Shown here piece after piece: positions 7,069 to 57,986 of a DNA stretch of 64,000 nt (positions within the stretch are counted from its first letter, which is position 1; every line of letters starts with the position of its first letter). This DNA is from Synechococcus sp. Tobar12-5m-g (GTDB taxonomy: Bacteria; Cyanobacteriota; Cyanobacteriia; PCC-6307; Cyanobiaceae): the NCBI RefSeq assembly GCF_024345415.1, contig NZ_JAGQBB010000008.1:1-64000 (forward strand), read 5' to 3'. Made by a program: the position numbers and the translations under genes. Under the pieces are notes generated by a model. The model worked only from the letters and a program-made list of their open reading frames with translations, searched no databases and was not told the origin of the DNA.

Positions 7069-8274
7069 TCAGGCCTCGTTGAGGGCGGCGACGCCCGGCA
7101 GCACCTTGCCTTCCAGCAGCTCTAGGCTGGCGCCACCGCCGGTGGAGATGTGGCTCATCTTCTCGGCCACGCCCACCTTCTCCACCGCCGCCACCGAATC
7201 CCCGCCGCCGATGATCGTGCAGGTGCCGGTGGCGGTCAGGCCCGCCAGGGTATGGGCGATGGCATCGGTGCCGGCGGCGAACTTGTCGAACTCGAACACC
7301 CCCATGGGCCCGTTCCAGATCACGGTCTTGCAGTCGGCCAGGGCCGCTTCGAAGGCCTTGATCGAATCAGGGCCGATATCGAGACCCATCCAGCCGTCAG
7401 GGATGGCATCGATCGCGGTGATCTGGCTGTTCGCGTCGGGGGAGAAGGCATCGGCCAGCACCACGTCGGTGGGCAGCAGCAGCTGGACCCCCTTGGCGGC
7501 CGCCTTGGCTTCCAGTGCCTTGGCCAGTTCCAACTTGTCCTCCTCCACCAGGCTCTTGCCCACTGCCAGGCCCCGGGCCTTGTAGAAGGTGAAGATCATG
7601 CCGCCGCCGATCAGCACCTTGTCGCACTTGTCGATCAGGGCCTCGAGCACGCCGATCTTGCTGCTCACCTTGGAGCCGCCCACGATCGCCGCCAGGGGGC
7701 GCTTCGGCTCGTCGATGGCCCCTTGCAGGTACTGCAGCTCCTTCTCCATCAGCTGGCCCGCCACGCTGGGGTTGAGGAACTTGGTCACCCCTTCGGTGGA
7801 GGCGTGGGCGCGGTGGGCGGCGCCGAAGGCGTCGTTCACGTACACCTCGGCCAGGGCCGCCAGCTTCTCGGCGAAGGCTGGATCGTTCGTCTCCTCTTCG
7901 GCGAAGAAGCGCACGTTCTCCAGCAGCAGCACCCCCCCGTCGGCCAGGGCCGCCACCTTGGCTTCGGCATCGGGGCCGATGCAGCTCTCGGTTTTCTCCA
8001 CCGGCACCCCCAGCAGTTCGCTCAGGCGCGCCGCCACCTGGGTGAGGCGCATGCCCTCGTTCACCTGCCCCTTCGGCCGGCCGTAATGGGCCGCCAGGAT
8101 CACGCGGGCGCCGTGGTCCCGCAGGAAGGCGATCGTGGGCAGGGCAGCGCGGATGCGGGTGTCATCGGTGATCGCCCCGGCCTCATCGGCAGGTACGTTG
8201 AAGTCGACCCGCACCAAAACACGCTTGCCGCTGAGGTCAGCGGCGGAGAGGCTGGCCAGGGTGCGCTTTGGCAT
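7069..8274 (-). CDS. pgk: Phosphoglycerate kinase
   Basis: A 401 aa enzyme that interconverts 1,3-bisphosphoglycerate and 3-phosphoglycerate in glycolysis and the Calvin cycle. Visible motifs are VRVDFNVP at the N terminus, [45 protein letters not shown], the nucleotide region [13 protein letters not shown] and the C-terminal [11 protein letters not shown] and [14 protein letters not shown]. Length matches bacterial PGK. The AAHYGRPKG segment has His-Tyr where many PGKs have SHLGRP. It is divergent from the uspA-like gene. Confidence 0.96.
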
Positions 8275-8376
8275 GGCGGGAATTAAAAACGATGGGTGAG
8301 GTTAGCCCGCAGCCCTCTGGGCGCTAGGACAAGGGTTGGGCCCCCCTGGCCCCTTCTCCCCTCAGGACCGTGAACG

Positions 8377-8760
8377 ATGTTCAGCACTGTTCTGTTTCCG
8401 ATCGACCAAAGCCGCCAGACGATGGAAACCGCCGCGGTGGCCCTGGAGCTGGCCCAGCGCCACGCCAGCCGCCTGGTGGTGCTCTCGGTGGTGGAGCCCG
8501 AGGAGGGCGCCATGCATGACGCCGCCGCCGTGGCCCAACTGCTGGAGCAGGCCCGTCAGCACTTCGAGCAGGCCGGGATGGCCTGCGAGGTGATCGAGCG
8601 GGAGGGCAAGCCGGCCTTCGTGATCGGCGATGTCGCCGACGAGATCAACGCCGATGTGATCGTGATGGGCACCCGCGGCCTCACGCTCGGGGCCGATGAA
8701 CCCAGCACCGCCTCCCGGGTGATCCAGTTGGCCCCCTGCCCGGTGCTGGTGGTGCCCTGA
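8377..8760 (+). CDS. Universal stress protein, UspA family
   Basis: A 127 aa single Usp domain. It opens MFSTVLFPIDQS and has the C-terminal nucleotide-binding motif GTRGLTLGADEPSTASRVIQ followed by CPVLVVP, the G-2x-G-9x-G(S/T) type loop of ATP-binding Usps. Its stop overlaps the start of the ylqF-like gene (TGATG), so translation is probably coupled in a three-gene chain with ylqF and the pseudouridine synthase. Confidence 0.88.
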   Translation: MFSTVLFPIDQSRQTMETAAVALELAQRHASRLVVLSVVEPEEGAMHDAAAVAQLLEQARQHFEQAGMACEVIEREGKPAFVIGDVADEINADVIVMGTRGLTLGADEPSTASRVIQLAPCPVLVVP

Positions 8761-9731
8761 TGGAGGCTGTTGCCAGAGCAGGTGCCACCCCGGCGGGCCA
8801 CGGCCTCAGCGCGTCTGCCCCGGCGATCCAGTGGTATCCGGGCCACATCGCCAAGGCGGAGCGCCAGCTCAAGGATCAGCTCAGCAAGGTGGATCTGGTG
8901 ATCGAGGTGCGGGATGCCCGCATCCCCCGGGCCACCGGCCATCCCCGCCTGCAGCGCTGGATGCAGGGCAAGCAGCGCCTGCTGGTGATCAACCGCCGCG
9001 ACATGGTGAATGAAACGGCTCGGCTGGTCTGGGACCGCTGGCTGCGGGCCCAGGGGGAGACCCCCTGGTGGTGTGACGCCAAGGTGGGAACGGGTGTCAA
9101 GCAGCTGCAGGAGGCGGCGATCCGGGCCGGCGCCCAGCTCAATGCCCGCCGGGCTGGTCGCGGCATGCAACCCCGGCCGGTGCGGGCCCTGATGCTGGGC
9201 TTCCCCAACGTGGGCAAGTCGGCCCTGATCAACCGCCTGGTGCGCCGGAAGGTGGTGGACAGCGCCCGCCGGGCCGGTGTGACCCGCACCCTGCGCTGGG
9301 TGCGGGTGGGTCAGGAGCTCGATCTGCTCGATGCCCCCGGTGTGCTGCCACCACGGCTCGATGACCAGCGGGCCGCCCTGCTGTTGGCCCTCTGCGATGA
9401 CATCGGCCAGGCGGCCTACGACGGGGAGGCCGTGGCCATGGCCTTCCTTCGCCTGCTCGATGAGCTGGCCAAGCGGCCGGCAGCCGATCTCAGCCTTGCC
9501 CTGGTGGAGAGCCGCTATGGAGTGCCGGTGCCCCGGCTCGATTCCGCCGATCCCCGCACGGCCGTGGATGGGGCGGCCTGGCTGGCGGCGGCCGCCGGCC
9601 GCCACACCAGCGGCGACACCGCCCGCATGGCCCAACGGCTGCTCGACGACTTCCGCCGCTCCCTGCTGGGCGCGATCGCCCTGGAGCTGCCGCCATCGCC
9701 ATTGCCTCCAGCACTGCCACCGCCACCGTGA
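8760..9731 (+). CDS. ylqF: Ribosome biogenesis GTPase YlqF/RbgA
   Basis: A 323 aa circularly permuted GTPase needed for late 50S subunit assembly. The order of motifs is the permuted one: WYPGHIAKAERQL, then a G4-like NRRDMV, the P-loop GFPNVGKSALIN, the switch G2/G3 region ending LDAPGVLPP. The C-terminal RNA-binding part contains the GDTARMAQRLLDDFR helix. ATG 8760 overlaps the stop of the Usp gene by one base, and its own stop overlaps the GTG start of the next gene by four bases. Confidence 0.92.
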   Translation: MEAVARAGATPAGHGLSASAPAIQWYPGHIAKAERQLKDQLSKVDLVIEVRDARIPRATGHPRLQRWMQGKQRLLVINRRDMVNETARLVWDRWLRAQGETPWWCDAKVGTGVKQLQEAAIRAGAQLNARRAGRGMQPRPVRALMLGFPNVGKSALINRLVRRKVVDSARRAGVTRTLRWVRVGQELDLLDAPGVLPPRLDDQRAALLLALCDDIGQAAYDGEAVAMAFLRLLDELAKRPAADLSLALVESRYGVPVPRLDSADPRTAVDGAAWLAAAAGRHTSGDTARMAQRLLDDFRRSLLGAIALELPPSPLPPALPPPP

Positions 9732-10678
9732 CGGCCTTCGGTTCGGGCGATGGCGCCTTGATCAGCCTGGTCTATCCCAGGCCCCTGCCGATGCGCCTGG
9801 ACCGCTGGCTGGTGGCCCAACGGCCGGAGCAGAGCCGGGCCCGCATCCAGAAACTGATCGAAGCCGGGCTGGTGCAGGTGAACGGGGTCACCGGCCGCGC
9901 CAAGACCCCCCTGCGCCCGGGCGACGCGGTGGAGCTGTGGATGCCGCCGCCGGAACCGCTGCCTTACCTGCTGCCCCAGGCGATGCCCCTGGATGTGCTG
10001 TTCGAGGACGAGCACCTGATCGTGCTCAACAAGCCGGCCGGCCTCACCGTTCATCCGGCTCCCGGCAACCGGGATGGAACCCTGGTGAACGGGTTGCTGC
10101 ACCACTGCCCCGACCTGCCGGGCATCGGCGGGGAGCGGCGGCCGGGCATCGTGCACCGCCTCGACAAGGACACCACCGGCTGCATCGTGGTGGCCAAAAG
10201 CCAGGAGGCGCTGGTGAAGCTGCAGGTGCAGATCCAGAAGCGGATCGCCTCGCGTGCGTATCTGGCGGTGATCCACGGGGTGCCGAAAACGGAAAGCGGC
10301 ACGATCGAGGCCGCGATAGGCCGCCATCCGATCGATCGCAAGAAGTACGCCGTGGTGGACGGCGAGAAAGGTCGTCACGCCACCACCCGCTGGCGGCTGA
10401 TCGAGCGGCTCGGCGATTACTCCCTGCTGCGCTTCCAGCTCGACACCGGCCGCACCCACCAGATCCGGGTGCACTGCGCCCACCTGGGCCATCCGATCGT
10501 GGGGGATGCCACCTACGGCCGCTGCCGCAAGTTGCCGATGGCCCTGCCCGGCCAGGCCCTGCATGCGGTGCAGCTGGGCCTGGACCACCCGATCAGCGGC
10601 GAGCGGCTGGTCTTTGAAGCCCCCCTGCCCGAGGTGTTCGAGAAGCTGCTGGCGGTGCTGCGCAGGAGCCGCAGCTAG
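9728..10678 (+). CDS. rluD: Large-subunit rRNA pseudouridine synthase, RluD family
   Basis: A 316 aa enzyme that isomerises specific uridines in 23S rRNA. An N-terminal S4-like RNA-binding domain (MRLDRWLVAQRPEQSRARIQ, residues 18-80) precedes the catalytic domain with GIVHRLDKDTTG, where the Asp is the known catalytic residue of RluA/RluD enzymes, and LDTGRTHQIRVH. The start is GTG 9728, inside the stop region of ylqF. Its 3' end overlaps the convergent UPF0114 pseudogene by four bases. RluD versus RluC substrate choice cannot be read from the sequence. Confidence 0.88.
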   Translation: MTAFGSGDGALISLVYPRPLPMRLDRWLVAQRPEQSRARIQKLIEAGLVQVNGVTGRAKTPLRPGDAVELWMPPPEPLPYLLPQAMPLDVLFEDEHLIVLNKPAGLTVHPAPGNRDGTLVNGLLHHCPDLPGIGGERRPGIVHRLDKDTTGCIVVAKSQEALVKLQVQIQKRIASRAYLAVIHGVPKTESGTIEAAIGRHPIDRKKYAVVDGEKGRHATTRWRLIERLGDYSLLRFQLDTGRTHQIRVHCAHLGHPIVGDATYGRCRKLPMALPGQALHAVQLGLDHPISGERLVFEAPLPEVFEKLLAVLRRSRS

Positions 10679-11190
10679 GGATCGCCGCCGGCCTTGGCGG
10701 GATTGACCTGGTTTTCGCCGCCATAGATCTTGAAGGCCAGCAGGGCGGCAGTGACCAGGACCGTTCCGGTTCCGGCGAACAGCAGCTCGATGCCATTGGA
10801 ATGCTGATCCTTGATCGAGCTCTCCAGATGGCTGAAGGTCTCAAGGAAGGAAACGGCCATCGAGAGGGATCAGGAAGTTGGCGAACATGCTCTTGCCCTC
10901 ATGGAAGCTGCGTACCCGGATCGGCTCCGGCAGGTTCAGTTCTCGCACGAACAGGCAAAACATCCCGATCGCCAGGGTCAGGCAGCCGCTGCCCACCAGG
11001 AAAAACCGATGGCCTGCAGGATCTGCACCTCGAAGTGGCCCAGCTTCTCGAAATCCCCCCAGAAAGCCTCATCCAGCTGGTCCACCACCAGATGGGCTCC
11101 CATCAGGTAAGTGGCCGCCGTCGCGGCCAGCAGACCGAGAACGGCAATGACGATCAGAAAGCGCGCTCTCGGCAGGAAGCGATGGATCAC
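10675..11190 (-). pseudogene. UPF0114 (YqhA-like) membrane protein gene with two frameshifts
   Basis: Three pieces of one membrane protein lie in successive frames on the minus strand. The first (from ATG 11190) starts MIHRFLPRARFLIVIAVLG and ends after QAIGFSWWAAAA. The second reads LVGSGCLTLAIGMFCLFVRE, then PEPIRVRSFHEGKSM. The third reads MAVSFLETFSHLESSIKDQH and ends at 10675. Together they match UPF0114/YqhA layout: four helices and an S-h-x-FLE signature. The first shift sits in a run of five A on the plus strand near 10999, where a sixth A would restore frame. The second is near 10861. Either a decayed gene or sequence errors. Confidence 0.7.
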
Positions 11191-11453
11191 GGGGTGGGGG
11201 TCAGCAAAGCCGACAGATCACGGGAGAAGATCCTTGGTTTTATCTCGTTCTGTTCGTCGCGGCCATGGGCGACGAAGTCTCAGCCGGATTCGCCCCCCCG
11301 ACTCCATCTCCCCTTCTGGTCCCGCCACCCAGGCGATCGCCAGCTGGGCCAAGGCCACCCTCTCCCCCCCCAGGGCCCCTGCTCTGGCAGACCCTCTTTC
11401 ACAAGAGCGCCTGCCTCTCCTGCACCTGGGCCAGAGGGGGTGTTCGCCCAGCG

Positions 11454-11582
11454 CAGTCTGGCGACCTGCAGGCAGCGCTCAACGGCAAGACCTACCAGCA
11501 ACGCGCCGATCCCTTCTCCTCGCCAGCGAGGATCTCTGGCCAGTCGAGCCATCCGGAAGCAGGGGATCGGATAGGGAGGCAC
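11454..11582 (-). pseudogene. Fragment of a GNAT acetyltransferase (TacT-like toxin family)
   Basis: About 43 codons reading VPPYPIPCFRMARLA, DPRWRGEGIGALL and AVERCLQVA. This is the acetyl-CoA-binding part of a GNAT acetyltransferase (R/Q-x-x-G-x-G/A pattern as RGEGIG), most like the tRNA-acetylating toxins paired with DUF1778 antitoxins. A stop lies directly upstream, and the similarity ends after the fragment, so both the N-terminal strands and the C-terminal catalytic Tyr region are missing. No antitoxin partner is seen next to it. Confidence 0.5.
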
Positions 11583-11936
11583 TTAAGCCTCGCCTGACAA
11601 GGTCAGGGCTCATTCCGTCCTCAGTCCGCTATCATGAGCTTGGCGACTTATGTGGATCAGGCCATCAACACATTCACCAATTCCTGTCATTCGTCGATGG
11701 CCTTGGTTGCCAATTCGCTCGCCGCTATTCCGATCTGCTGGCGGTAGTTGAAGCCCAAGGACTAGCCCCCCTGGGAGCTGGTGCGGGCCTGGGGCCGGGT
11801 GACTAACCCCCGTTACCGCATCAAGCGCTGCCCACCGGCGGTGGCAGCTGGCTCAATGCCCTCCCTGACCCGGATCAAGGCTGTCCTGCGCTGGATGGGC
11901 GCAGATAGCTCAGAAGAAAGCGCATTTTTGCGGTAA
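11583..11936. other. Stretch without a convincing gene
   Basis: No full-length gene is recognised between the GNAT fragment and the hairpin at 11937. A short plus-strand frame from ATG 11634 (37 codons, MSLATYVDQAINTF...) and a later open stretch in the same frame ending SSEESAFLR at 11935 are separated by two stops. They may be relics of one small gene, but I recognise neither. Confidence 0.4.
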
Positions 11937-45614: not shown

Positions 45615-47366
45615 GAGACTCCTGAACAACAAATTGCACGCCGGCTCGAGTTCAGCCAATGACCAGGGGGGTAGGCAGCTCGAAAACTAGGTTATGCAGT
45701 GACCAGCGAATCGGCTGTCTCAAGCAGGCAGATGGTCCTAAGCGCCACCCAGAGCAAGCCTGGCCGTTGCAAGGTGTGAAACCAAGCAAAGATAGTGACA
45801 AAAAAGAGGCGGAGAAGCCTCATGCTCTTCTCTGCGCACATCACCAGAAATGCCATGGCAATCGAGGTCTCTGCGCCTTTGTCCAGCCGAGCCATAATCA
45901 ATTCAAGAGAATACTTTCGCTTCCCTGTTCCAAAGCAACCTTCCACCTCATTTCGCCTCCTCTGGTCTGCGCTGAGCTGCTGCTTGTGGGCAGCATTGAT
46001 CTCTGGATCCTTTGGTGGCCTCCCTAATCGCTTACCAGATAGCCGTATGTTATTCCTCGTGCAGAAGTTTCTATTCTTGGTGTTGATGTAGATGCGATCA
46101 GCGCAGATTCGCTCGGGGTAACAGCCGAGTTCCTGCTTATATCTCTTGGCTTGTGGAATCAGGTCCTCGGCCTCATTGTATGGATCCCAGCTGATCCTGT
46201 GCAGAAAGGCAAAGCCATTTCGCACAGAGACACTAACTTTGGCGCCAAACTCAACAGCAGCTCTTGCCTTGCCGCGAACAATGGGACGAACCTGCCGCTG
46301 AATCAAGTTGACGATGCGGTCGGGGATGCTGCGCGTCGTGGCGTACAGCAGGATGCTTTGTAGGCGGTGCAGCTCGCTGATCACGAGAAGTTTGTGCCAC
46401 CAATGCGTCTTCAGGCCCGAAAGGCTTGCCCCAGAAGCGATCAAGGCATCGATAGCATCAAGATTACGCTGCAGGTAGTCGAGTTGGCGTCGTATTGCGG
46501 CTTTTATTTATCGACGGCGTGGCTTCTTCTGTTTGGCGACATTTAGGAAAACAGCACGTGCCCTGCCACGATCATATTGGGGCTTGTGTTTCGAAAGTCT
46601 GATTGCCGATCGCACAGATCATCAATGATTCGTTCAGTCGACTCCCTTGCCTCGTTCAGCAACTTCAGATCAGTCGGATAGGTGATGTCCGCTGGCGTGC
46701 AAGAGGCATCGATGGTGAGTGTTCCCCAGTTCTTGCCCTCTGGCCAATCTGCAGGCTTCACGAAATCGTCGAGTGATAGCTGGGTTCCAGCATCAGCGCC
46801 TGGAGCATCAGAGTCGTCGTCATCTGGGAGTGACGACACAGCCTCGATTACCATGGCCTTACGGGGTTCGGCAATCAGTTCGCTTATCCGCTTGAGATCC
46901 TCCTCCGAGAATCGGTTGCGGAAATGAACCATCATTGATGGATCAAACGGCACCTTGCTGGAATAGCCGGCAAAGCCAAGGAAAAACTGCATGTAAGCAT
47001 TTTCTCGGATCTGCTCGACGGTCTCCTCATCGGTCAAGCCAAGCCGCTGCTTGATGAACAGCGCGCCAAACGCCAGGCGTGCAGGCACCCCAGTCGTGGG
47101 GTTGAACTGAGGGGCATATGCTTCTTCTATCTCGTCAGATGGCATCAGCGAGGCGAAAAGAACCCAGCGGTTCTCCGGGTCCAACGTGCCGCCAAAAGGC
47201 ACATGGAACTCGACGATTGAGAGCTGCCCGTTATGGTGTTTTCGGTACATCTGCAGCGTTCAGCAGTTGTAGCAATCGTCAATTGCCCTGTTCGAGGCCA
47301 GTTAATCGGGTCTCGATCACTGAAACAAGTTGCGCCGCAGTCGATCTGGCATTTTCAGGAGTCCCC
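45615..47366 (-). mobile_element. Complete but inactive IS5-type insertion sequence, 1752 bp
   Basis: The left end reads GAGACTCCTGAACAAC inward (from 45615) and the right end, on the minus strand from 47366, reads GGGGACTCCTGAAAATGCC, sharing GACTCCTGAA at matching positions. AATTA flanks both ends (45610-45614 and 47367-47371) and is a plausible target duplication. Inside is one broken transposase gene on the minus strand. IS5-group elements usually make three- or four-base duplications, so the exact duplicated length (TTA, ATTA or AATTA) is unclear. Confidence 0.75.
45692..47250 (-). pseudogene. IS5/IS1182-like DDE transposase with frameshift and nonsense codon
   Basis: The first part (ATG 47250) begins MYRKHHNGQLSIVEFHVPFG and contains PFDPSMMVHFRNRFSEEDL (DUF772-type N domain) and TIDASCTPADITYPTDLKLL (first DDE Asp). 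Reading frame is lost near 46593, where one A appears deleted (RNTSPN in place of a RKHKPQYDRGRAR frame that continues one base over). That continued frame meets an in-frame TAA near 46510 (RRR-stop-IKAAIRRQLDYL), then resumes as the second part to 45692, with ERICADRIYINTKNRNFC and RRNEVEGCFG. Two lesions make it non-functional. Confidence 0.85.
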
Positions 47367-48033: not shown

Positions 48034-51000
48034 TCAGGGTGTAAAGCTGAGCCATTCCCGCGCCCTATTTAGCAACATATCGAACTCCTGCAGTGTGGCT
48101 GACCACTTCCTCACTGTCCCGTCTGAGGAAGCAGTTACTACGAAAAGTCCGTCTGGACTGAAACTGACAGCCCTGACAGGCCCTTTGTGCCCCCTAAATA
48201 GTCTAGTCGGCACAGCAGCATGAGCAGTAGATTTACACTCTAAATCCCATAAATAAGCATTCCGATCCAGGGAACCGCTAACTAAATAACGGCTGCAGGG
48301 ACTGAAACAGGCACTCCAAATAGGAATGGCAGGATCGTGGGTAAAATCCGTGAATAACTTGCGGGTTTTCCAGTTCCAGACATAGAGTTTACCAGCCGAA
48401 GAACTGCCCACGAGATACTTGCAATCAGGGCTAAAATTGACACTCAAGATCGGGCTTTTTCCTCCGGAAAACCCACATACCTTCTTTCCCTGAAGATCCC
48501 ACAAGCAGACGCTGCCGTCGTCTGCGCCACTGGCAAGGAATTTATCGTCAGGACTGAAGCTCACACTCCAAATCGGACCCTTAGCCCCAAGCCACTCGCA
48601 CTGCTGCTGCCCCTGCAGGTTCCAGAGACGAATTGTCTTGTCCGCCGAACCAGTAACCAGCAATTGCCCGTCGGGACTGAAGTTGATACTCCAGACAGAA
48701 TTTTGATGTCCCTTAAATGATTGGAGGCGATTGCCCTCCACATCCCACAGAGAAGCAGTGCCATCGGCAGAGGCGGTAGCGAAATGGAATGCTGTCGGGC
48801 TGAAACTGACTTGCTTGACCCAGCTTGCGTGGACATTAATCTGCTTGAGCGGCCTGTTGTCCACATCCCAACGCTGGACATCCCAGAGACAGACAGTACC
48901 ACCTGAGGAAGCAGTTGCCAGGTATTGACCATCATGACTGAAGCTGGAACTCAACAAAGACCCTTCCTGTCTCTTGACCTGGGGCAGCCGCTGTAAGTTC
49001 CAGAGGTGAATCTTGCGATCGCCGCAGGCAGAAGCCAACAACTCACCTTCGGGGCTGAAGCCAATCCCCTGAACCGGCGCGGCATGAACCAGTTTAGCCA
49101 GCTCGCTACCGTCAAAATCCCAAATGCGCACGGTACAGTCTTCCGAAGCACTGGCTAGGTATAAGTTTTGGGGGTGGAAGCGGACACTAAACACCCAGCC
49201 TTTATGACCTCTTAGGGTTTTATATTTTTTACCGGTTTCTGGGTTCCAGAGTTTGACGCTGTTATCGGAACTACCAGAGGCAAGCATCGTCCCTTCCTTG
49301 TTAAAATTCACGCTCCAGATGGCTGCATCGTGAGCCTCCCAGTCCCGCAGTTTCATTCCTGCTAAATCCCAGAGGCTGATGCTGCCGCTGTTTGAGCCAG
49401 TGGCGAAATAATTGCCATGGGGACTGAAACTGATGCACCAGATAGGACCCTGGGCGGCTAAAAACTGGAGGCGTTCATTGCCTTCTAAGTCGCAGAGGCG
49501 AACTTTACCATCCGTGCCAGCAATAGCCACCAATTTTCCGTCAGGACTGAAGGCGACATCGCGGATGGGCGCGGGATAGGGAATTAACACTAGGGGATTG
49601 CCTTGCGAGTGCAAGTCCCAGAGGCGAGCCGTCCCGTCATCGCAGGCAGAAACGAGATAGCGGCCGTCAGGGCTAAAATCAATGCCCCAGATCCAATTGC
49701 GAGGCTCTTTAAAGATTTTCAACAGTGTTCCCTGCCGGTTCCACAACCGAACGGTGCCGTCTTCTGAACTGCTGGCTAGTCTCTTGCCATCAGGAGCAAA
49801 AATAACGCTGCAAGCGGCTCCTTTATGACCTGACAGCTCTAGGATTTCTTGAATGTTGTCTAAGATATGTTCCAGTACTGACCTCAAGGAATCTGAAGAA
49901 TAGCCTCGCGGAAGCAAGTCTTCTTTAATTGCATTTTGTAGAGTTTCACCCGCATTTGCGATTGTCCGCAAAGCATTGAGTTGGGAGGATTCGGCAAACT
50001 GTTCCAGAGCTTTAGGAACTACCGTATCGAGAGTTAATTGTGCCTTATACTTGGCTCGATTGTATTGCATCCAATAATGGTTGTGCCACTCTAAAATTGC
50101 TTCAGCAAGGATGCTGTGGGAGATTTCGTAGCAGATTTGGCTGGGATTTGTCGGACAACTGACAGGGTTTAGAAGGTTTTGACGTTGTAGTGCCTTTAAG
50201 ATAGTTCGCAGTTCAGCTTCTCCCATACCTGCTTGTTTTGCCAAATCTTCAACGGGGTAGGCAATTTTTGTGCCCCCGGGAGTAATGAGGTAGCCAACGA
50301 TTTTTGCTAGAACTTTGACGGCATTCGGTTTGGCAGACTCAGCCAGCTGTTTTATTTGCTCATTGAAATAGTATTTTATAATCTTCTCGCGCCTACCTAG
50401 GTCTTGGAATGTCACAAGACGCAGGAGATCGGATTTATTATTTCTCTCTTTTGCCCAAAGGCACTGCATGACTAACTGCAAGCAGGCAGTATCAAAGTTA
50501 ACTTCTACTAAGTCTTTGATTATCTCGTCTATTAAGTCTGGTGCAATTCCAACTTTCTCATTTGGATTCTCGGAATTATATTTCTTAAATATAGGGTTGA
50601 CAATTGCTTCGTAGATAGCATCTTCGTCAAGAGGTAATAGTGGCAGTCGGTTGCGAATTATATCAGGGATTGCTCCCTTGAAGCGATCGAGTTTTGAAAG
50701 AAAGTCTTCATCAACGGCAATGAGAAAGTTGACGTTCAGTCCCAGATGGTTGACCGCATTAGGAAACTCTGCTTCAAAGCTGTTCTCTGCCATCTCTGGT
50801 TGAGGATGGTAGAGAAAGTATTCTTCAAATTCATCAAGAATGATATATATCATACCCTGATCGTCGCCGCGGTCGAGGGCTTTGCTATAATCTACTAAAA
50901 TGTCCTCAAAGCTATCAGGTTCTATTGATCTTGGCGGCAATGAATGCCCAGGAATTAACTCTTCAATTTCATTCCTTACTTGCTTGACTAAGCTCATCAG

Positions 51001-51279
51001 AGGATTAGGTTCTTGCCAATCCTTAAAGATGATAACAGCCAACTGAGGAAAACTGAAATTCTCAATATTTTGCTGTGCTAGCCGGTGGAGTTCATGAACC
51101 ACCCCCGCTTGCAACAATGAGGTTTGTCCTACGCTATGCTTACCATAGAGGACGGTCAGTCGGCAACTTTTTAGGTAATCAATAAGTTGCTTTTTCTCTT
51201 TATCTCTGCCAAAGAAAATATCGGCATCTGCTTCGTCAAAAGCGGCTAATCCTTTGTAGGGACAGGTTGGACTTGACAT
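48034..51279 (-). CDS. nSTAND1-like ATPase with 14 WD40 repeats
   Basis: A 1081 aa signal-transduction ATPase. Residues 6-24 (CPYKGLAAFDEADADIFFGRD) are the entry motif of nSTAND1 proteins. The P-loop is GKHSVGQT (46-53), in which Gln replaces the essential Lys. Walker B follows as IYIILDEFEEYF (Asp149, Glu150). A helical region precedes 14 WD40 repeats (about 480-1075; ends such as VRLWNRQG, ARLWDLHS, IRLWNLQG, AYLWDLEC), enough for two seven-bladed propellers. GAGGT precedes ATG 51279. Third gene of an AT-rich operon; probably the sensor and oligomerising platform for the two proteins encoded before it. Confidence 0.88.
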   Translation of the reverse strand: MSSPTCPYKGLAAFDEADADIFFGRDKEKKQLIDYLKSCRLTVLYGKHSVGQTSLLQAGVVHELHRLAQQNIENFSFPQLAVIIFKDWQEPNPLMSLVKQVRNEIEELIPGHSLPPRSIEPDSFEDILVDYSKALDRGDDQGMIYIILDEFEEYFLYHPQPEMAENSFEAEFPNAVNHLGLNVNFLIAVDEDFLSKLDRFKGAIPDIIRNRLPLLPLDEDAIYEAIVNPIFKKYNSENPNEKVGIAPDLIDEIIKDLVEVNFDTACLQLVMQCLWAKERNNKSDLLRLVTFQDLGRREKIIKYYFNEQIKQLAESAKPNAVKVLAKIVGYLITPGGTKIAYPVEDLAKQAGMGEAELRTILKALQRQNLLNPVSCPTNPSQICYEISHSILAEAILEWHNHYWMQYNRAKYKAQLTLDTVVPKALEQFAESSQLNALRTIANAGETLQNAIKEDLLPRGYSSDSLRSVLEHILDNIQEILELSGHKGAACSVIFAPDGKRLASSSEDGTVRLWNRQGTLLKIFKEPRNWIWGIDFSPDGRYLVSACDDGTARLWDLHSQGNPLVLIPYPAPIRDVAFSPDGKLVAIAGTDGKVRLCDLEGNERLQFLAAQGPIWCISFSPHGNYFATGSNSGSISLWDLAGMKLRDWEAHDAAIWSVNFNKEGTMLASGSSDNSVKLWNPETGKKYKTLRGHKGWVFSVRFHPQNLYLASASEDCTVRIWDFDGSELAKLVHAAPVQGIGFSPEGELLASACGDRKIHLWNLQRLPQVKRQEGSLLSSSFSHDGQYLATASSGGTVCLWDVQRWDVDNRPLKQINVHASWVKQVSFSPTAFHFATASADGTASLWDVEGNRLQSFKGHQNSVWSINFSPDGQLLVTGSADKTIRLWNLQGQQQCEWLGAKGPIWSVSFSPDDKFLASGADDGSVCLWDLQGKKVCGFSGGKSPILSVNFSPDCKYLVGSSSAGKLYVWNWKTRKLFTDFTHDPAIPIWSACFSPCSRYLVSGSLDRNAYLWDLECKSTAHAAVPTRLFRGHKGPVRAVSFSPDGLFVVTASSDGTVRKWSATLQEFDMLLNRAREWLSFTP

Positions 51280-51332: not shown

Positions 51333-52925
51333 TTAATTATCTTCTGGATTTATTAAAGCGTCCAGTTTGTTGCAAATCTCCACTAATGCGTCATTTAACT
51401 CAGAAGAATCAAGTGTTTGCTGAGGATCAAGCTTATCTAATGGTTTATTTACATCGTAAGCTGCTTGGTAGTTAGCAATTATTTTACCAAGATCAGTTCG
51501 TGTATACCTACAACTTGTCAGACAAAACCAGAATATGGTCAATCCTTCTTCTTCAGCAGCTTCTAGTAGAGGTGGCAGTTCGTTCTTGGTAATAAACTCT
51601 GAGTTTAAGAAATTTGAACTGACTAGCAAGACAGCAACTTTAGTTGAGGCAAGCGCTCTTTTGATTTCTTCTCCCCATTTCATTCCTGTTTTGATATAGG
51701 TGTCATCCCACCATAAGTCACCTTCATCGATTGTACTTCTACCGTACATGTCTTTGAACTTCTCTAGCCATTTGCTATCTTTATGGCTATAGCTAATAAA
51801 TATTCTACTTCGCTGAGGTATTTCAGGAGCAGGAACATTCACTTTAGAGATGTTGGTGACTGGTTTTTTCACGGTAGTAAGTTGAGATTTTAACTGTTTT
51901 TCTAGTTCAATAATGTAGGCTTCTAAAGAATCAATTGCAAGGTTATTGACACCGTATTTATCCCAGAACTTTTCATCCAAACGTTCTGGATGCTCTTGAA
52001 TTGCCCACCATCTTTTGTCAGTTTTATAAAGTTGTTCTCGCCAAATACGAGAGAGAATAAGTCGCAGATTCCAATGGCTGGGGCTGTATTCGAGAAACCA
52101 AAGCCGTCGATTTTTTTCTTGAAGCGCTACCAAAAGACTTGGAGGAAGTAATTCTTTGATACTTCTCTGAGTTAAGTAATCAATAAAGTCGTCTTCAGCA
52201 ATAGTAAATTGTCCACTATCAGCTTTCTCAACTCCTCCATAAAGCTTGAGAATAACTGGGCGCTGCTTGAGGGAGATTTCATAATCTTGAGGGTCTTCAA
52301 TTAGAATGGGTTTTTCGTTAAAGGGGGTATGCAGAAACCGTCCCCCCATTTCATTTCCAATAAATGCCACGACATCAAAATCCTGGTTTGCCTGCTGAAA
52401 AGCCTGCTCTAAGACACTATCTAAACAAGTTGTGACAATTAAGGGATAGGGAGGCGCATAATCATTGTCTTTAAGAAGGCTGGGCAATCTAGCCAAGAAT
52501 TGGTGAACTGGATTGGGTGAATACTTTGATTCTAAGATTTCTCTGAGCATAGCTTCAAGGGTATCTGAATCGCACAGAGATAGGTATTGGGCTACATTGG
52601 CTAATGCTAATTTAGTAATTGTATCCTTGTTGATTAACGGACACTCTGGTGGTAAATGATTATCAGTCGTGTTGCAAAGAGGGCAAGTATTGACATAGCC
52701 CCAGTCATTTTCCTTGGCCAAATGAATTGCCAGTTCATAACTACTGGGAGGGTAGTTGCCATCCTGCCAGTCTACCGGTTCTCCATTTTGTTTTTTGGGG
52801 CGGCCACAGAGGTTAACATCAGAACTCAAGAAAGGAATGATTATTCCCTGTTTGATTGCATCAATAACCACTTTGTAGTGGCTGTTTAGTTGTTTAGAAC
52901 TAGCCTTAGTTTGTGATGCTGGCAT
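51333..52925 (-). CDS. SIR2-like (catalytically degenerate) and TIR domain fusion
   Basis: A 530 aa protein. Residues 15-330 follow the SIR2_2-type fold of defence proteins, but its three active-site motifs are altered: the glycine loop reads [13 protein letters not shown] (34-36, normally GAG), the Asn motif reads TTCLD (165-169, normally TTNYD), and the His motif reads KLYG (227-230, normally KLHG). A CPLC...C insert (81-95) may bind zinc. A TIR domain (372-500) begins [10 protein letters not shown] and keeps Glu449 in [13 protein letters not shown], the position of the NADase Glu. AAGGAAGA lies before ATG 52925. It overlaps the upstream gene by 20 bases. Confidence 0.85.
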
Positions 52926-54120
52926 GGGACTCTTCCTTTTTGATTGTAGTTAAATCGTGAAATCCTTTGCGTCTCTTAAATCGCAAAGAGATGTATATCA
53001 TATCTCTTAGAGAATCTGGGAGATTTGGATGTTCTCCATTGGCAATCTCCTCAAATATAGATAGGGAGCCAGGATAGAGAATCGGATACAAGTTGGAATC
53101 AAAGAGGCAAGAAAAGATTGCCAATTCCTCAATCAAATATTGTTGGCAAATCTGGAGAAAGTCATTTCCCGAGATACTGGTTGCATCTACAGCGAGGTGG
53201 CGTTGCACGAATTGGAAAGAGAAAGTATTAACTGCGTTGACAAGTCTGGTATCATTCTTCATTAAATCCTCAATTATATCATAATATTCTCTGTAACTGT
53301 CTGTCTGCTGGATATCTGAGCAATAAACAAATTCAAATGGACAAGAATTCAAGTAGCGATCAAATACGGGTAATTCAGCATTAATGTATTTTCCACCCGC
53401 ATGGAGCGCTTGGACAAATGCTTGTCTTTCTGTCAAGCCGTGATTGTCTATTAGTAAACTCAGGCGGTATAGACTATCGCCCAGCAATACCCTACAGCTG
53501 CGAAAACGCTTAGCTATCCAGTCAGTCATGGCGATTAGTTTTGCCGTTGAGAAGCTGGGATTGTCTAGGCTTACTCCCAAATAACAACTATCATATGACG
53601 CAAGCTTCCCTCTCGCAATCTCAGGAGCAACTTCATTTACAAAGACATGGTATTTTGGTTTTGTGGGGATTTCAATGTCCTCTTTCATATCACTTAATGA
53701 CACCATATCAACGTAGGCCATAGAAAATACATTCCTTGGGGAATCACCCAGGAAGCTTATCTCTCCAAACTGTTTTAATTCAGGCGCAAAAAGTACATTG
53801 AGACCATAAAGCCTGCCTATGGGTGCGATGATACCCAATGAATGATTCGGCAGTATTAATTTAATATCATCAGCGGTTAACACTGTGATTTTACTAGCCT
53901 TAAGCCTATTTTGCAAATCAACCAAGTCAATTTGCTTGCAATGGGAGATAACAGCTATTACAATTTGATGACCATCAATTTCCAGTAAGCAAGAATCAAC
54001 AAATTCCATCCCAAGCATGGCTTGCTGGTCTTGTATTTCTTCCATGCTGCAAGAATTTGAATAACTTGTTATTGTATATTTGACCTGATTGCCGTCAAGA
54101 AAGTCTTTAAGAGCTAACAT
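52906..54120 (-). CDS. YbaK-like tRNA-editing domain fused to cyclodipeptide synthase domain
   Basis: A 404 aa protein, first gene of the operon. Residues 1-145 resemble YbaK/ProX aminoacyl-tRNA deacylases ([18 protein letters not shown], then [21 protein letters not shown]), though the usual substrate-contacting Lys appears to be Asp42. Residues 157-385 resemble tRNA-dependent cyclodipeptide synthases: [17 protein letters not shown] supplies Ser184 (AlbC Ser37), [11 protein letters not shown] supplies Tyr328 and Glu332 (AlbC Tyr178, Glu182) and LYPGSLSIF supplies Tyr349 (AlbC Tyr202), with near-identical spacing. Such enzymes join two aminoacyl-tRNAs into a cyclic dipeptide. The fusion and its TIR/STAND neighbours are, to my knowledge, unusual. 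Confidence 0.75.
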
Positions 54121-54156: not shown

Positions 54157-54477
54157 CTATTTAAGCACATAAAGGTAGATTGTCAATGCCTGCGTAAGGA
54201 CTGGATAGGGCTTCCTGAGAGAGTGAGCCTGAGCCCGAACTGAACGACCGAGGTGGATACTCTGAGCAACAACATCGTTGAGGTCAAACGGATCAGGAAG
54301 ATCGGAAAAGGGCAAGTCGATTCGTTCCGCCAGGCTTCGAGCAAGCCAGTGATACAAAGGAATCGAAGTTCCATCCTCTTCAACAGTCACCAGCTCTGGG
54401 CCGATCACTGGAATCACCTTGCCCTCCTCCACAAAGAGCAGCAGGTCTTCCCAGAATCGCTCCAGAGATTCAGGCAT
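54157..54477 (-). pseudogene. Truncated N terminus of a SIR2-like protein
   Basis: A 106 aa frame opening MPESLERFWEDLLLFVEEGK and VIPVIGPELVTVEEDG, the start of defence-type SIR2 proteins with the variant loop VIGPEL. DLPDPFDLNDVVAQ is still recognisable, then the sequence diverges and stops at 54157. A full SIR2 domain needs about 250 residues, so the rest is gone. The open frame extends upstream of the ATG (KIFILSFWGLGE), so the true start is unclear. The join to AT-rich sequence at about 54200 marks the edge of the inserted operon. Confidence 0.6.
54158..54186 (-). promoter_or_regulatory. Sigma70-type promoter of the CDPS-TIR-STAND operon
   Basis: On the minus strand TTGACA (54181-54186) and TAAATA (54158-54163) are separated by exactly 17 bases. 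Transcription would start near 54150, about 30 bases before ATG 54120. The -10 box lies at the very end of the truncated SIR2 frame. Confidence 0.65.
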
Positions 54478-54745
54478 TTCGCCAAGGCCCCAGAAGCTCA
54501 GAATGAAGATCTTCGGCTTGGGAGCGACGTCGTCGAACTGAAGATAACGGTCTCACACGCGATCACCATTTTGATCCAACAGTAGGCAAGGCATGCCTGA
54601 GCGTCAAGAGATTTGTTGGCCGTTAGCCGCTCCATCAGCCCACAAAGCGTTCAGATCGATCCAGCGTTGTGAAATCCTTCAAACAAATCAGCCCGATCTT
54701 TGATGTTGGCTAAGGTTGCTTCAGTGCCTGAATGCGCAACTCCCC

Positions 54746-56743
54746 ATGCCAGTCCTGCCCCATGCGTTTGTGGTGATGCCCTTCGGCCGCAAGCCTGGAG
54801 GCGATGGGGTGCCGATTGATTTCAATCGCATCTACTCCAACTTCATTCATCCGGCCCTGAAGAAGGCTGGCCTGGAGCCTTTCCGTGCCGACGAGGAGCA
54901 GCGTGCCGGCAACATCCACAGCGACATGTTCCAGGAACTGCTGCTCGCCGATCTGGTGGTGGCCGACCTCACCATTGACAATCCCAATGTCTGGTATGAG
55001 CTCGGGGTCCGCCACGCTCTGAGCGCCCGGGGCGTGGTGCTGATCTGCGGCGGCAGGGTCCCCACCGCCTTTGATCTCCAACCCGACCGAAAACTGCGCT
55101 ACGGCCTGCTTGATGGTGTTCCCGATCCCACCACCCTGCCCAGCGATATCGAGAACCTGGCGGACATGGTGCGGGCCACCATGGAGAGCTGGCAGGGCCG
55201 ACGCATCAGCCCCGTGTATGCCCTGTTGCCCAATCTTCAGGAGCCCGACTGGAGAAGCTTGCGCGTTGGGGGCGTATGCGAATTCTGGGAGCAACATGAC
55301 GCCTGGCTGGAGCGGATCGAGCGCGCCCGCCGTGCCAACGACATCGGCGACATGCTCGTGCTCGCCGACGAGGGCCCCGTGGCCGCGTTCCGTGCTGAAG
55401 CCTGGATTGCTGCCGGCACCGCTCTGCGCAAGGCAGAGCGATTCCGGCTCGCCCTGGAGCAGTTGGAGAAAGGCCTGGCCATCAAGCCCACCGACCTCAA
55501 GGCACTCCAGGAGAAGGGCACCTGTCTGCAGCGTTTAGCGATCGCAGGGGAGCCCGGCCACAGCCTCGATCGGGCGCGCGACCACTACCGCAAGGTGTTG
55601 GAAGCGCATCCGAAGGATGCGGAAACCAGGGCCCTCGCCGCCAGGGTGGACAAGGACGCCTGGGTGGATGGGTGGCGCCTAACCGATACCCCGCCGGAGC
55701 AGAAGCGGGCGGAGGCCGCCGAAGCCATCGACCTGCTCACGATGGCGATCGATCAGTACGCGGCGGCGTTCCGCTCCAATCCGGCCCATTACTACTCCGG
55801 CATCAATGCCCTCACCCTGATGCATCTGGCCTTGAATCTCACCGGCGACCACCGCTGTGATCACCAGATGGAGGTGATGGCTGGGGCGGTGCGCTTCGCG
55901 GCCGAGTGCGAGGAGGATCCCGCTCAGCAGTTTTGGGCCCTGGCCACCCTTGCGGATCTCGAGGTGCTGGTGGGAACCCCCGAGGGGGTACAGGGGGCCT
56001 ATCGCAAGGCCATCGCCCGCAATGACAAGGATCGTTTTGCACTCGAATCCGTGCGCTCCCAGTTGCTGCTCCTGCAGGATCTGGAATTCCAGCCTGAAAC
56101 GGTGAGCGTGGCGATTGCCACCCTCGATCGTGCCATCGAGAAAACCACTCCCGCCGCGGTGCGCTGGCGGCCTCGCCAGGCCATCCTGTTCAGCGGCCAC
56201 ATCATGGACACGCCCAACCGCCCCCAGCCCAGGTTCCCTGCCGCCATGGAGGCCGCAGCCACGGAAAGAATCGGCGCTGCCCTCGATGCCCTCGGCGCCG
56301 GTGCCGATGACATCACCTACTGCCAGGCAGCCGCGGGCGGTGATCTGATCTTTCTGGAGGCCGCCCTGCAGAGGCAGGTGCGATGCCAGGTGCTGCTGCC
56401 TTTTGATGAGGCCACGTTTCTGCAGCGCTCGGTGCTTCCATCCGTGCATGGGGAACAGTGGCGTGATCGCTATTTCGCCATGAAGGAAAGGCTCACGCTG
56501 CCCATTCGCTTCATGCCCGATGAACTGGGCCCCACTCCGCCACAGCTGAATGCCTTTGAACGCTGCAATATCTGGCTGCTCAACTCCACGCTGGCCTGTG
56601 GGATTGATCGTGTGCGGTTCATCGCCCTCTGGAACGGTGCTGGGGGCGATGGCCCCGGCGGCACCGCCCATCTGCATCAAGAAGTGCAACGCCGCACCGG
56701 CCAGGTGAGCTGGATCGACACCCGCTCCCTACCTTGTGCCTAG
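54746..56743 (+). CDS. Deoxyribosyltransferase-like / TPR (DUF4071) / SLOG-like protein
   Basis: A 665 aa protein with three parts. Residues 1-100 (HAFVVMPFG, ADLVVADLTIDNPNVWYELG, Glu85) resemble the nucleoside deoxyribosyltransferase-like fold related to TIR. Residues 160-450 are TPR-like helices matching the TRAFs-binding/DUF4071 family (RAEAWIAAGTALRKAERFRL, LALEQLEKGLAIKP). Residues 475-665 (QAILFSGHIMDTPNRPQPRF, QAAAGGDLIFLEAAL, RTGQVSWIDTR) look like a SLOG/Rossmann nucleotide-handling domain. TTG 54716 is an alternative start. GC-rich, unlike the operon to its left. The patatin gene follows directly. Confidence 0.72.
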   Translation: MPVLPHAFVVMPFGRKPGGDGVPIDFNRIYSNFIHPALKKAGLEPFRADEEQRAGNIHSDMFQELLLADLVVADLTIDNPNVWYELGVRHALSARGVVLICGGRVPTAFDLQPDRKLRYGLLDGVPDPTTLPSDIENLADMVRATMESWQGRRISPVYALLPNLQEPDWRSLRVGGVCEFWEQHDAWLERIERARRANDIGDMLVLADEGPVAAFRAEAWIAAGTALRKAERFRLALEQLEKGLAIKPTDLKALQEKGTCLQRLAIAGEPGHSLDRARDHYRKVLEAHPKDAETRALAARVDKDAWVDGWRLTDTPPEQKRAEAAEAIDLLTMAIDQYAAAFRSNPAHYYSGINALTLMHLALNLTGDHRCDHQMEVMAGAVRFAAECEEDPAQQFWALATLADLEVLVGTPEGVQGAYRKAIARNDKDRFALESVRSQLLLLQDLEFQPETVSVAIATLDRAIEKTTPAAVRWRPRQAILFSGHIMDTPNRPQPRFPAAMEAAATERIGAALDALGAGADDITYCQAAAGGDLIFLEAALQRQVRCQVLLPFDEATFLQRSVLPSVHGEQWRDRYFAMKERLTLPIRFMPDELGPTPPQLNAFERCNIWLLNSTLACGIDRVRFIALWNGAGGDGPGGTAHLHQEVQRRTGQVSWIDTRSLPCA

Positions 56744-56774
56744 GCCAGTGGTGGCCCCCTTCGATCAGCCCATC

Positions 56775-57986
56775 ATGACTGACGTCTCCGCAGATCATCC
56801 CATCCTGGCCCGGATGAGGAAGGAAGGGCCCAAGAAGATCCTCACCTGCGATGGTGGAGGCATCCGCGGGCTGATCAGCGTGGAGATCCTCGCCAAACTC
56901 GAGGCGGATCTGCGTATAAAGCTAGGGCAACCCGAGCTCCTTCTGGGCGACTATTTCGATTTCATCTGCGGCACCAGCACGGGGGGCATCATCGCCGCGT
57001 GCCTATCGTCCGGGATGTCTGTGAGCCAGATTCGCGACTTCTACGTGAGCAACGGTTCCAGCATGTTCGAGCGGGCCAAGTGGTACATGCAACTGCATCA
57101 GAAGTATGAAGCCGAACCCCTGGCCTTGCTGCTGCAGCAGGCGCTGACCTGTCAGCTCAACGGCCCCGGTTCCATCTACAACGAAAACGATCCCCCCGTT
57201 GAACTCGGCGATCTCAGGATGCGTGGGCTGCTGATGCTCGTTCTGCGCAACCACAATACCGATTCCCCCTGGCCGGTTTGCAACAACCCCCTGGCCAAGT
57301 ACAACCAACTGGATCGGAAGGATTGCAACCTTCATCTGCCGCTCTGGCAGCTGGTGAGGGCAAGCACGGCGGCGCCCACGTTCTTTCCGCCCGAAGTGGT
57401 GACCTTTGCTGCGGGGACCAACCGGGAGTACCAGTTCGTGTTCGTGGATGGGGGCATCACCACCTACAACAATCCCGCCTACCTGGCCTTCCAGATGGCC
57501 ACCGCCAGCCCGTACAAGATCAATTGGACCACAGGGGTTGATCAGATGCTGATCGTTTCAGTGGGCACGGGCAACGCTCCCGCCGCCAGGCCTGACTTTC
57601 GCCCGGAGGAACTTTCACGGCTCGGCCTTGCCATTACGGTTCCCTCCGCGCTGATGAATGCCGCCACAGCGGGCTGGGACATGGTGTGCCGCGTGTTGGG
57701 CGAGTGCCGCTATGGCGGGGAGGTGGATCGCGAGTTCGGCGCCATGATCCAGGCTCCGAATACGCCTGCGGGAGAGAGCAACTGGAGTGGGCTAAAGCAG
57801 TTCGCTTATGTTCGCTACGACCCCCTCACAAGCCGTGAGGGGCTGAATGATCTCGATCTCCCGGATGTGAGCGATAAGGCCATGGCAGGCATGGATGACG
57901 TCAAACTCATTCCCGAGCTCCAGCGGGTGGGAGAGGCCTACGCCGGGCGTCACGTGAAGATCGATCACCTCGCGGGCTTCGTGTGA
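56775..57986 (+). CDS. Patatin-like phospholipase
   Basis: A 403 aa lipid acyl hydrolase. Oxyanion loop CDGGGIRG (26-32), nucleophile motif GTSTGG with Ser68, and the catalytic Asp225 in VDGG complete the Ser-Asp dyad. AAPTFFPP precedes the Asp as in CapV-type bacterial patatins. GTG 56736, overlapping the upstream stop, could add 13 residues and would make the pair translationally coupled. With the nucleotide-handling partner upstream it fits an effector that attacks the cell's own membrane on a signal; this is inference. Confidence 0.88.
   Translation: MTDVSADHPILARMRKEGPKKILTCDGGGIRGLISVEILAKLEADLRIKLGQPELLLGDYFDFICGTSTGGIIAACLSSGMSVSQIRDFYVSNGSSMFERAKWYMQLHQKYEAEPLALLLQQALTCQLNGPGSIYNENDPPVELGDLRMRGLLMLVLRNHNTDSPWPVCNNPLAKYNQLDRKDCNLHLPLWQLVRASTAAPTFFPPEVVTFAAGTNREYQFVFVDGGITTYNNPAYLAFQMATASPYKINWTTGVDQMLIVSVGTGNAPAARPDFRPEELSRLGLAITVPSALMNAATAGWDMVCRVLGECRYGGEVDREFGAMIQAPNTPAGESNWSGLKQFAYVRYDPLTSREGLNDLDLPDVSDKAMAGMDDVKLIPELQRVGEAYAGRHVKIDHLAGFV

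Follow-up and report, generated by a model that had tools for sequence, protein, structure and literature searches.

The window analysed here is a stretch of 64,000 nt from Synechococcus sp. Tobar12-5m-g (GCF_024345415.1, contig NZ_JAGQBB010000008.1, positions 1-64,000, forward strand), and this report concerns a block of three genes on its minus strand. The middle gene (51333..52925) encodes a protein of 530 aa, with a frame that is uninterrupted throughout, in which Pfam recognizes SIR2_2 (1.7e-13, residues 162-327) and TIR_2 (4.8e-10, residues 375-472). Upstream, and overlapping the start of the SIR2-TIR gene by 20 bases, lies a gene (52906..54120, minus strand) for a 404-aa protein in which a YbaK-like tRNA-editing domain is joined to a cyclodipeptide synthase (CDPS); downstream, 53 bases past the SIR2-TIR stop codon, lies a gene (48034..51279, minus strand) for a 1081-aa protein composed of an nSTAND1 NTPase and a WD40 propeller. 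The window has a GC content of 0.64 and the block one of 0.39-0.48, and none of the other genomes sampled from the family, three members of the genus among them, carries the SIR2 gene; on both grounds the block looks horizontally acquired. No full-length second copy of the SIR2-TIR gene was found in the organism's own genome.

Several other features surround the block. Remnants of a DUF772-type transposase lie near the low-GC island (45692-47250, minus strand). Upstream of the operon there is a short ORF (54157..54477, minus strand; it contains VIPVIGPEL), which has no Pfam match and a weak phmmer match (0.46) to one SIR2 row, and which is possibly a truncated SIR2-type N-terminus, judging from its sequence. 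A gene for a patatin-like phospholipase (56736-57986, plus strand) has a counterpart that is 48 % identical over 385 aa in the nearest relative, the Prochloraceae metagenome genome L036 (4696-5862, minus strand); of all the loci fetched, only these two have it placed divergently beside the YbaK-CDPS gene. Between the patatin and YbaK-CDPS genes, the window also has a gene for a TPR-S protein with an N-terminal MPFG...-type domain (54716-56743, plus strand), which overlaps the patatin gene and probably represents a second conflict system beside the operon.

Defence sirtuins have been described as destroyers of NAD+, and to our knowledge their catalytic His was held to be universal until lately. 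The N-terminal part of the window protein (residues 8-353; 51867..52904, minus strand) has their fold, as the AlphaFold model, with a pLDDT mostly >75, superposes on ThsA with a Z of 20.2 (260 residues, rmsd 3.2), on DSR2 with 20.1, on KomC with 19.4 and on SPARSA with 19.1. What it lacks are the residues of the active site. The glycine loop reads SSD (residues 34-36; 52818..52826, minus strand) in place of GAG; the Asn motif reads TTCLD (residues 165-169; 52419..52433, minus strand) in place of TTNYD, with Cys167 at the position of the catalytic Asn and the Asp retained as Asp169; and the His motif reads KLYG (residues 227-230; 52236..52247, minus strand) in place of KxHG, with Tyr229 at the position of the catalytic His. 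These correspondences come from an alignment with solved sirtuins of a profile built from 21 relatives, in which TTCLD falls on the TTNYD of ThsA and KLYG on the KMHG of ThsA and KFHG of KomC. Thus, the protein shares the fold of SIR2-type NADases of the ThsA/DSR/Avs5 kind and has neither GAG, nor the catalytic Asn, nor the catalytic His or the Asn that PaAvs5 carries in its stead. With Asn, His and glycine loop all changed, the better bet is that the SIR2 domain would be catalytically inactive.

The C-terminal TIR domain spans approximately residues 374-525 (51351..51806, minus strand), as judged from Pfam TIR_2 and TIR alignments, and resembles ThsB models (9.5e-10). Its putative catalytic residue, Glu449 (51579..51581, minus strand), is invariant among seven related TIRs and aligns with the Glu of PdTIR and AbTIR, in the latter within the ELDGL segment. 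AlphaFold confidence is poor in this part of the protein, where there are only two aligned rows, and hence it is from sequence that the domain is assigned as a TIR with a predicted NADase activity. The first-pass annotation of this DNA had described a SIR2 domain changed in all three of its motifs while the fold and the TIR Glu were kept, and both halves of that description hold.

The downstream partner matches nSTAND1 (PF20703, 3.2e-34) and WD40 (8.8e-133) in Pfam. Its position is nearly constant: of the 39 distinct checkable genes with a Tyr, Phe or Cys motif and readable 3' sequence, 38 have an nSTAND1 gene downstream in the same orientation, within -57 to +83 bases; in the 39th (L039), the contig ends 401 bases later. 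The window copy has a degenerate Walker A, GKHSVGQT (51121..51144, minus strand), where relatives have GxSGVGK[ST], and has thereby lost the Walker A Lys. The motif is intact in the checked relatives, except for L036, which is without it, and L130, L133 and L141, which give no match to the pattern. In PaAvs5, replacement of the Walker A Gly or Lys by Ala abolishes defence (PMC12931631). Given this, the loss of the Lys in the window and the loss of the P-loop in L036, the NTPase is possibly non-functional in this lineage, where the system could be partly defective, independent of NTP or under a different regulation. In L036, the SIR2 part is fused directly and in frame to nSTAND1-WD40 (7962-11762, plus strand), and the fusion is without the SIR2 C-terminus, the TIR and the P-loop. 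It may be a natural deletion derivative or an artefact of metagenome-bin assembly. Since both the SIR2 C-terminus and the entire P-loop are lost at the junction, it was rejected as proof of a working SIR2-nSTAND1 fusion and is used below for motif conservation only.

The upstream partner is assigned by Pfam (tRNA_edit 1.8e-9, CDPS 2.6e-10) and by profile search, in which the YbaK part matches 3op6 (6e-32) and the CDPS part matches 9j61, of the AlbC family, over its length (3.3e-65). It keeps GxS (as GVSLDN), YLxEE (as YLIEE) and YPGS, whose residues we take, with roles after AlbC, to be the catalytic Ser, Tyr, Glu and Tyr; by homology and by these catalytic-type residues, the sequence is that of a cyclodipeptide synthase. 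What distinguishes it from the AlbC-family enzymes is its YbaK-like fusion partner and its linkage with a STAND operon, whereas a survey from 2010 knew CDPSs as standalone proteins only (PMC2922099). The fusion was seen in five neighbourhoods chosen through their SIR2 gene (the window, L036, L040, L044 and L046), a biased selection. When 217 Nostocaceae genomes were instead searched with the CDPS profile alone, seven YbaK-CDPS fusions were recovered, and a phosphoesterase-SIR2 and nSTAND1-WD40 pair adjoins all six of those with readable flanks, two of which come from the contigs already sampled as L044 and L046. Because CDPS genes that lack YbaK (L105-L109) have other, unrelated neighbourhoods, the claim of linkage is limited to the YbaK-CDPS fusion, and its lack at many SIR2-nSTAND1 loci marks it as an optional module and not as part of the core. 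Prochloraceae and Nostocaceae both have the fusion, whereas scans of viral contigs and plasmids for YbaK-CDPS gave no match. Several Nostocaceae genomes contain short remnants of the first 42 YbaK residues, with stop codons (L087-L090, L094 and L096).

Whether the altered SIR2 motifs reflect decay or a conserved state can be judged from the relatives, with motif positions counted over 45 aligned rows and invariance over the 17 rows of a clade. Single-sequence scans of genome contigs and viral contigs gave no relatives of the window SIR2 gene, whereas a query with an alignment yielded 21 loci; phages had no match and plasmids had only partial and distant ones. L036, which is 60 % identical by tblastn and 57 % in the tree, carries the same SSD, TTCLD and KLYG. 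The SIR2-TIR architecture also occurs in L007 and L136 (GDE, TAC[LF]D, KLYG) and in L039 (GPD, TTCFD, KLYG), so that the window gene cannot be taken as a unique oddity. In a tree built with the motif columns removed, L036 is the sister of the window protein (100/100); L039, L007 and L136 join the two (81/85), and the resulting group is nested in a clade of 15 rows (98/94) and in one of 20 rows (96/94), none of which has His. Across all 45 rows, the His position is occupied by Tyr in 30, Phe in eight, His in four and Cys in three, and the Asn position by Asn in 37, Cys in seven and Ile in one; the exact GAG was counted in one row of the alignment, and the rows that combine GAG with KIHG are all distant (Anaerolineae L041 and Deltaproteobacteria L053). 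With 41 of 45 rows, including the whole 20-row clade, lacking it, the loss of His is old and family-wide and not peculiar to the window protein. The loss of Asn is younger: it is seen in all four TIR-fused genes, as well as in L038 and L052, requires approximately four changes on the tree, and marks a subclade containing all SIR2-TIR forms. Inactivity is less certain for relatives that keep TTNYD, and in the most distant of these rows the SIR2 domain may have remained enzymatic. Four rows (L041, L047, L053 and L134) retain the catalytic His, L041 and L053 having GAG as well, and are likely active relatives. They too adjoin nSTAND1, and thus the association with it may predate the loss of catalysis.

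The altered domain has been under purifying selection. Pairwise dN/dS over the SIR2 part is 0.07-0.28 in 12 pairs, with 0.15 for the window and L036, a value that is indicative only, as silent sites are saturated. Tyr229 is invariant in all 17 clade rows, along with Asn38, Arg42, Asp169, Glu173 and Gly230, and invariant columns make up 12 of the 27 in the three former motif segments as against 24 of 305 elsewhere (Fisher p 2e-6, a rough figure because the rows are related). Decay would neither fix a single substitute nor conserve its surroundings. These results support the proposal made from the sequence at first reading, namely that the SIR2 domain is a pseudo-sirtuin retained by selection and not a recent casualty; close homologues with GAG, TTNYD and KLHG, which would have pointed the other way, were sought and none was found. 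As to whether SSD, TTCLD and KLYG are conserved in a clade, all three are identical in L036 and Tyr229 is fixed; the glycine loop and the Asn motif differ among the other relatives. The first reading mentioned neither the family-wide extent of the His change, nor the operon with nSTAND1 and CDPS, nor the degenerate Walker A.

What varies at these loci is the effector that is fused to the SIR2 part, which may be a Metallophos (calcineurin phosphoesterase), CHAT, PNP_UDP_1, ParA-like, trypsin, PGAP1-like hydrolase or TIR domain. Such swapping at a constant SIR2-nSTAND1 core favours a scaffold or adaptor role for the SIR2 domain over that of a ligand sensor. It also places the window locus with the nSTAND1 conflict systems by its nSTAND1 domain and its variable effectors at a constant core, although an intact Walker A is missing. 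The reading that we prefer, at a probability of roughly 60 %, is that the SIR2 part is a selected pseudo-sirtuin that acts as the unchanging adaptor in an immune operon of the STAND type, with interchangeable effectors. By this account, the nSTAND1-WD40 protein would sense an invader, oligomerize or change shape, and engage the SIR2-fold domain encoded by the adjacent gene. The SIR2 domain would then assemble in the manner of defence SIR2 domains, of which ThsA, KomC, Avs5 and FAM118 form filaments (PMC12700824; structure titles), and so gather the fused effectors. In the window the effector would be the TIR with Glu449, which would then consume NAD+, and the YbaK-CDPS protein, acting on aminoacyl-tRNA, would be a linked third component, either arresting growth as a second arm or supplying a small molecule. 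The domain identities, the motif losses and their conservation, the operon linkage and the effector swapping are features of the loci themselves; the contact between nSTAND1 and SIR2, the assembly, the activity of the TIR, the role of the CDPS and the antiviral purpose are what we infer from them.

Of the other readings, the most plausible, although still an unlikely one, is that the SIR2 pocket, freed from catalysis, is a binding site for a small molecule, whether NAD+, an ADP-ribose product or some other compound (conceivably what the CDPS makes), and thereby gates the TIR or the STAND protein. The invariance of the old active-site surroundings in 17 rows would suit a pocket of this kind, as conservation within the domain peaks in the motif segments and the His was replaced by a fixed Tyr and not at random. 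However, the same segments form the core of the fold and may be conserved for structural reasons, the middle position of the glycine loop is free to vary (A, S, P or D), and there is no known ligand. Sensing of a ligand can, moreover, coexist with an adaptor role. A more specific version is given a low probability: the linked YbaK-CDPS enzyme would make a cyclodipeptide or other aminoacyl-tRNA-derived product that serves as a second messenger in immunity, and its receptor would be the emptied SIR2 pocket, which on binding it releases the fused effector.

Equally improbable is the reading in which a horizontally acquired operon is decaying and the three SIR2 changes are part of that decay. The missing Walker A Lys, the low GC content, the absence of the gene from the other sampled genomes of the family and the nearby transposase are all in keeping with it, but the operon has three long genes with intact frames, its CDPS, WD40 and TIR domains are well conserved, and the same SIR2 changes are present in L036 at a path length of approximately 0.9 changes per site. 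Least probable is that the SIR2 domain is still an NADase through different residues. PaAvs5 is functional with Asn where the catalytic His would be, and Avs5 proteins have NG about as often as HG (PMC12931631), so that loss of the His by itself is no proof of inactivity, and Asp169 has been retained in the window protein. Against this, the catalytic Asn has been lost too, and in PaAvs5 N110A abolishes defence, as does Ala or Gln at the His position (PMC12931631); the glycine loop is also changed, and a precedent for Tyr was not found.

The window protein differs in several respects from the systems that it most resembles. ThsA, DSR2, KomC and SIR2-HerA share its SIR2 fold (Z 17-20), yet they are NADases with GAG, TTNxD and HG, whereas the window protein has lost the catalytic Asn and His along with the glycine-loop motif and carries a fused TIR. 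Avs5, as represented by PaAvs5, likewise couples SIR2 to a STAND NTPase and has a variable His motif (NG); however, it is a single SIR2-nSTAND3 protein with an active SIR2 domain, whereas here the Asn is lost, the effector is swappable and the nSTAND1-WD40 protein is encoded by a separate gene; membership in Avs5 was rejected on domain content. Thoeris also brings SIR2 and TIR together, but its SIR2 protein, ThsA, is an NADase with a SLOG sensor and its TIR protein, ThsB, a separate signal maker, whereas the window has one protein with a SIR2 domain that is predicted to be inactive; with TIR_2 at the C-terminus and no SLOG found by Pfam, membership in Thoeris was also rejected. In organization, the locus also resembles the constant-component conflict systems, namely EACC1 and the EAD- and TRADD-N-coupled STAND systems (Kaur 2020, 2021). 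In these, one module stays constant while the effectors vary widely within a shared pool that includes TIR, calcineurin, PNPase, caspase-like and trypsin domains, although the text of those papers describes neither a SIR2-fold pseudoenzyme as the constant module nor a cyclodipeptide synthase. In the open-access literature, neither an nSTAND1 study with SIR2 as the constant part nor a paper linking CDPS to anti-phage defence was found. Effector swapping of the STAND type is known, and no earlier report of a pseudo-SIR2 constant adaptor with a YbaK-CDPS partner was found there.

If the adaptor reading is true, a large cyanobacterial family would give the SIR2 fold a second life as an immune adaptor, and, through its recurrent YbaK-CDPS partner, a peptide-making enzyme that depends on tRNA would be added to bacterial immunity. 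The Nostoc operons, in which the P-loop is intact, make both the adaptor and the CDPS ideas testable.
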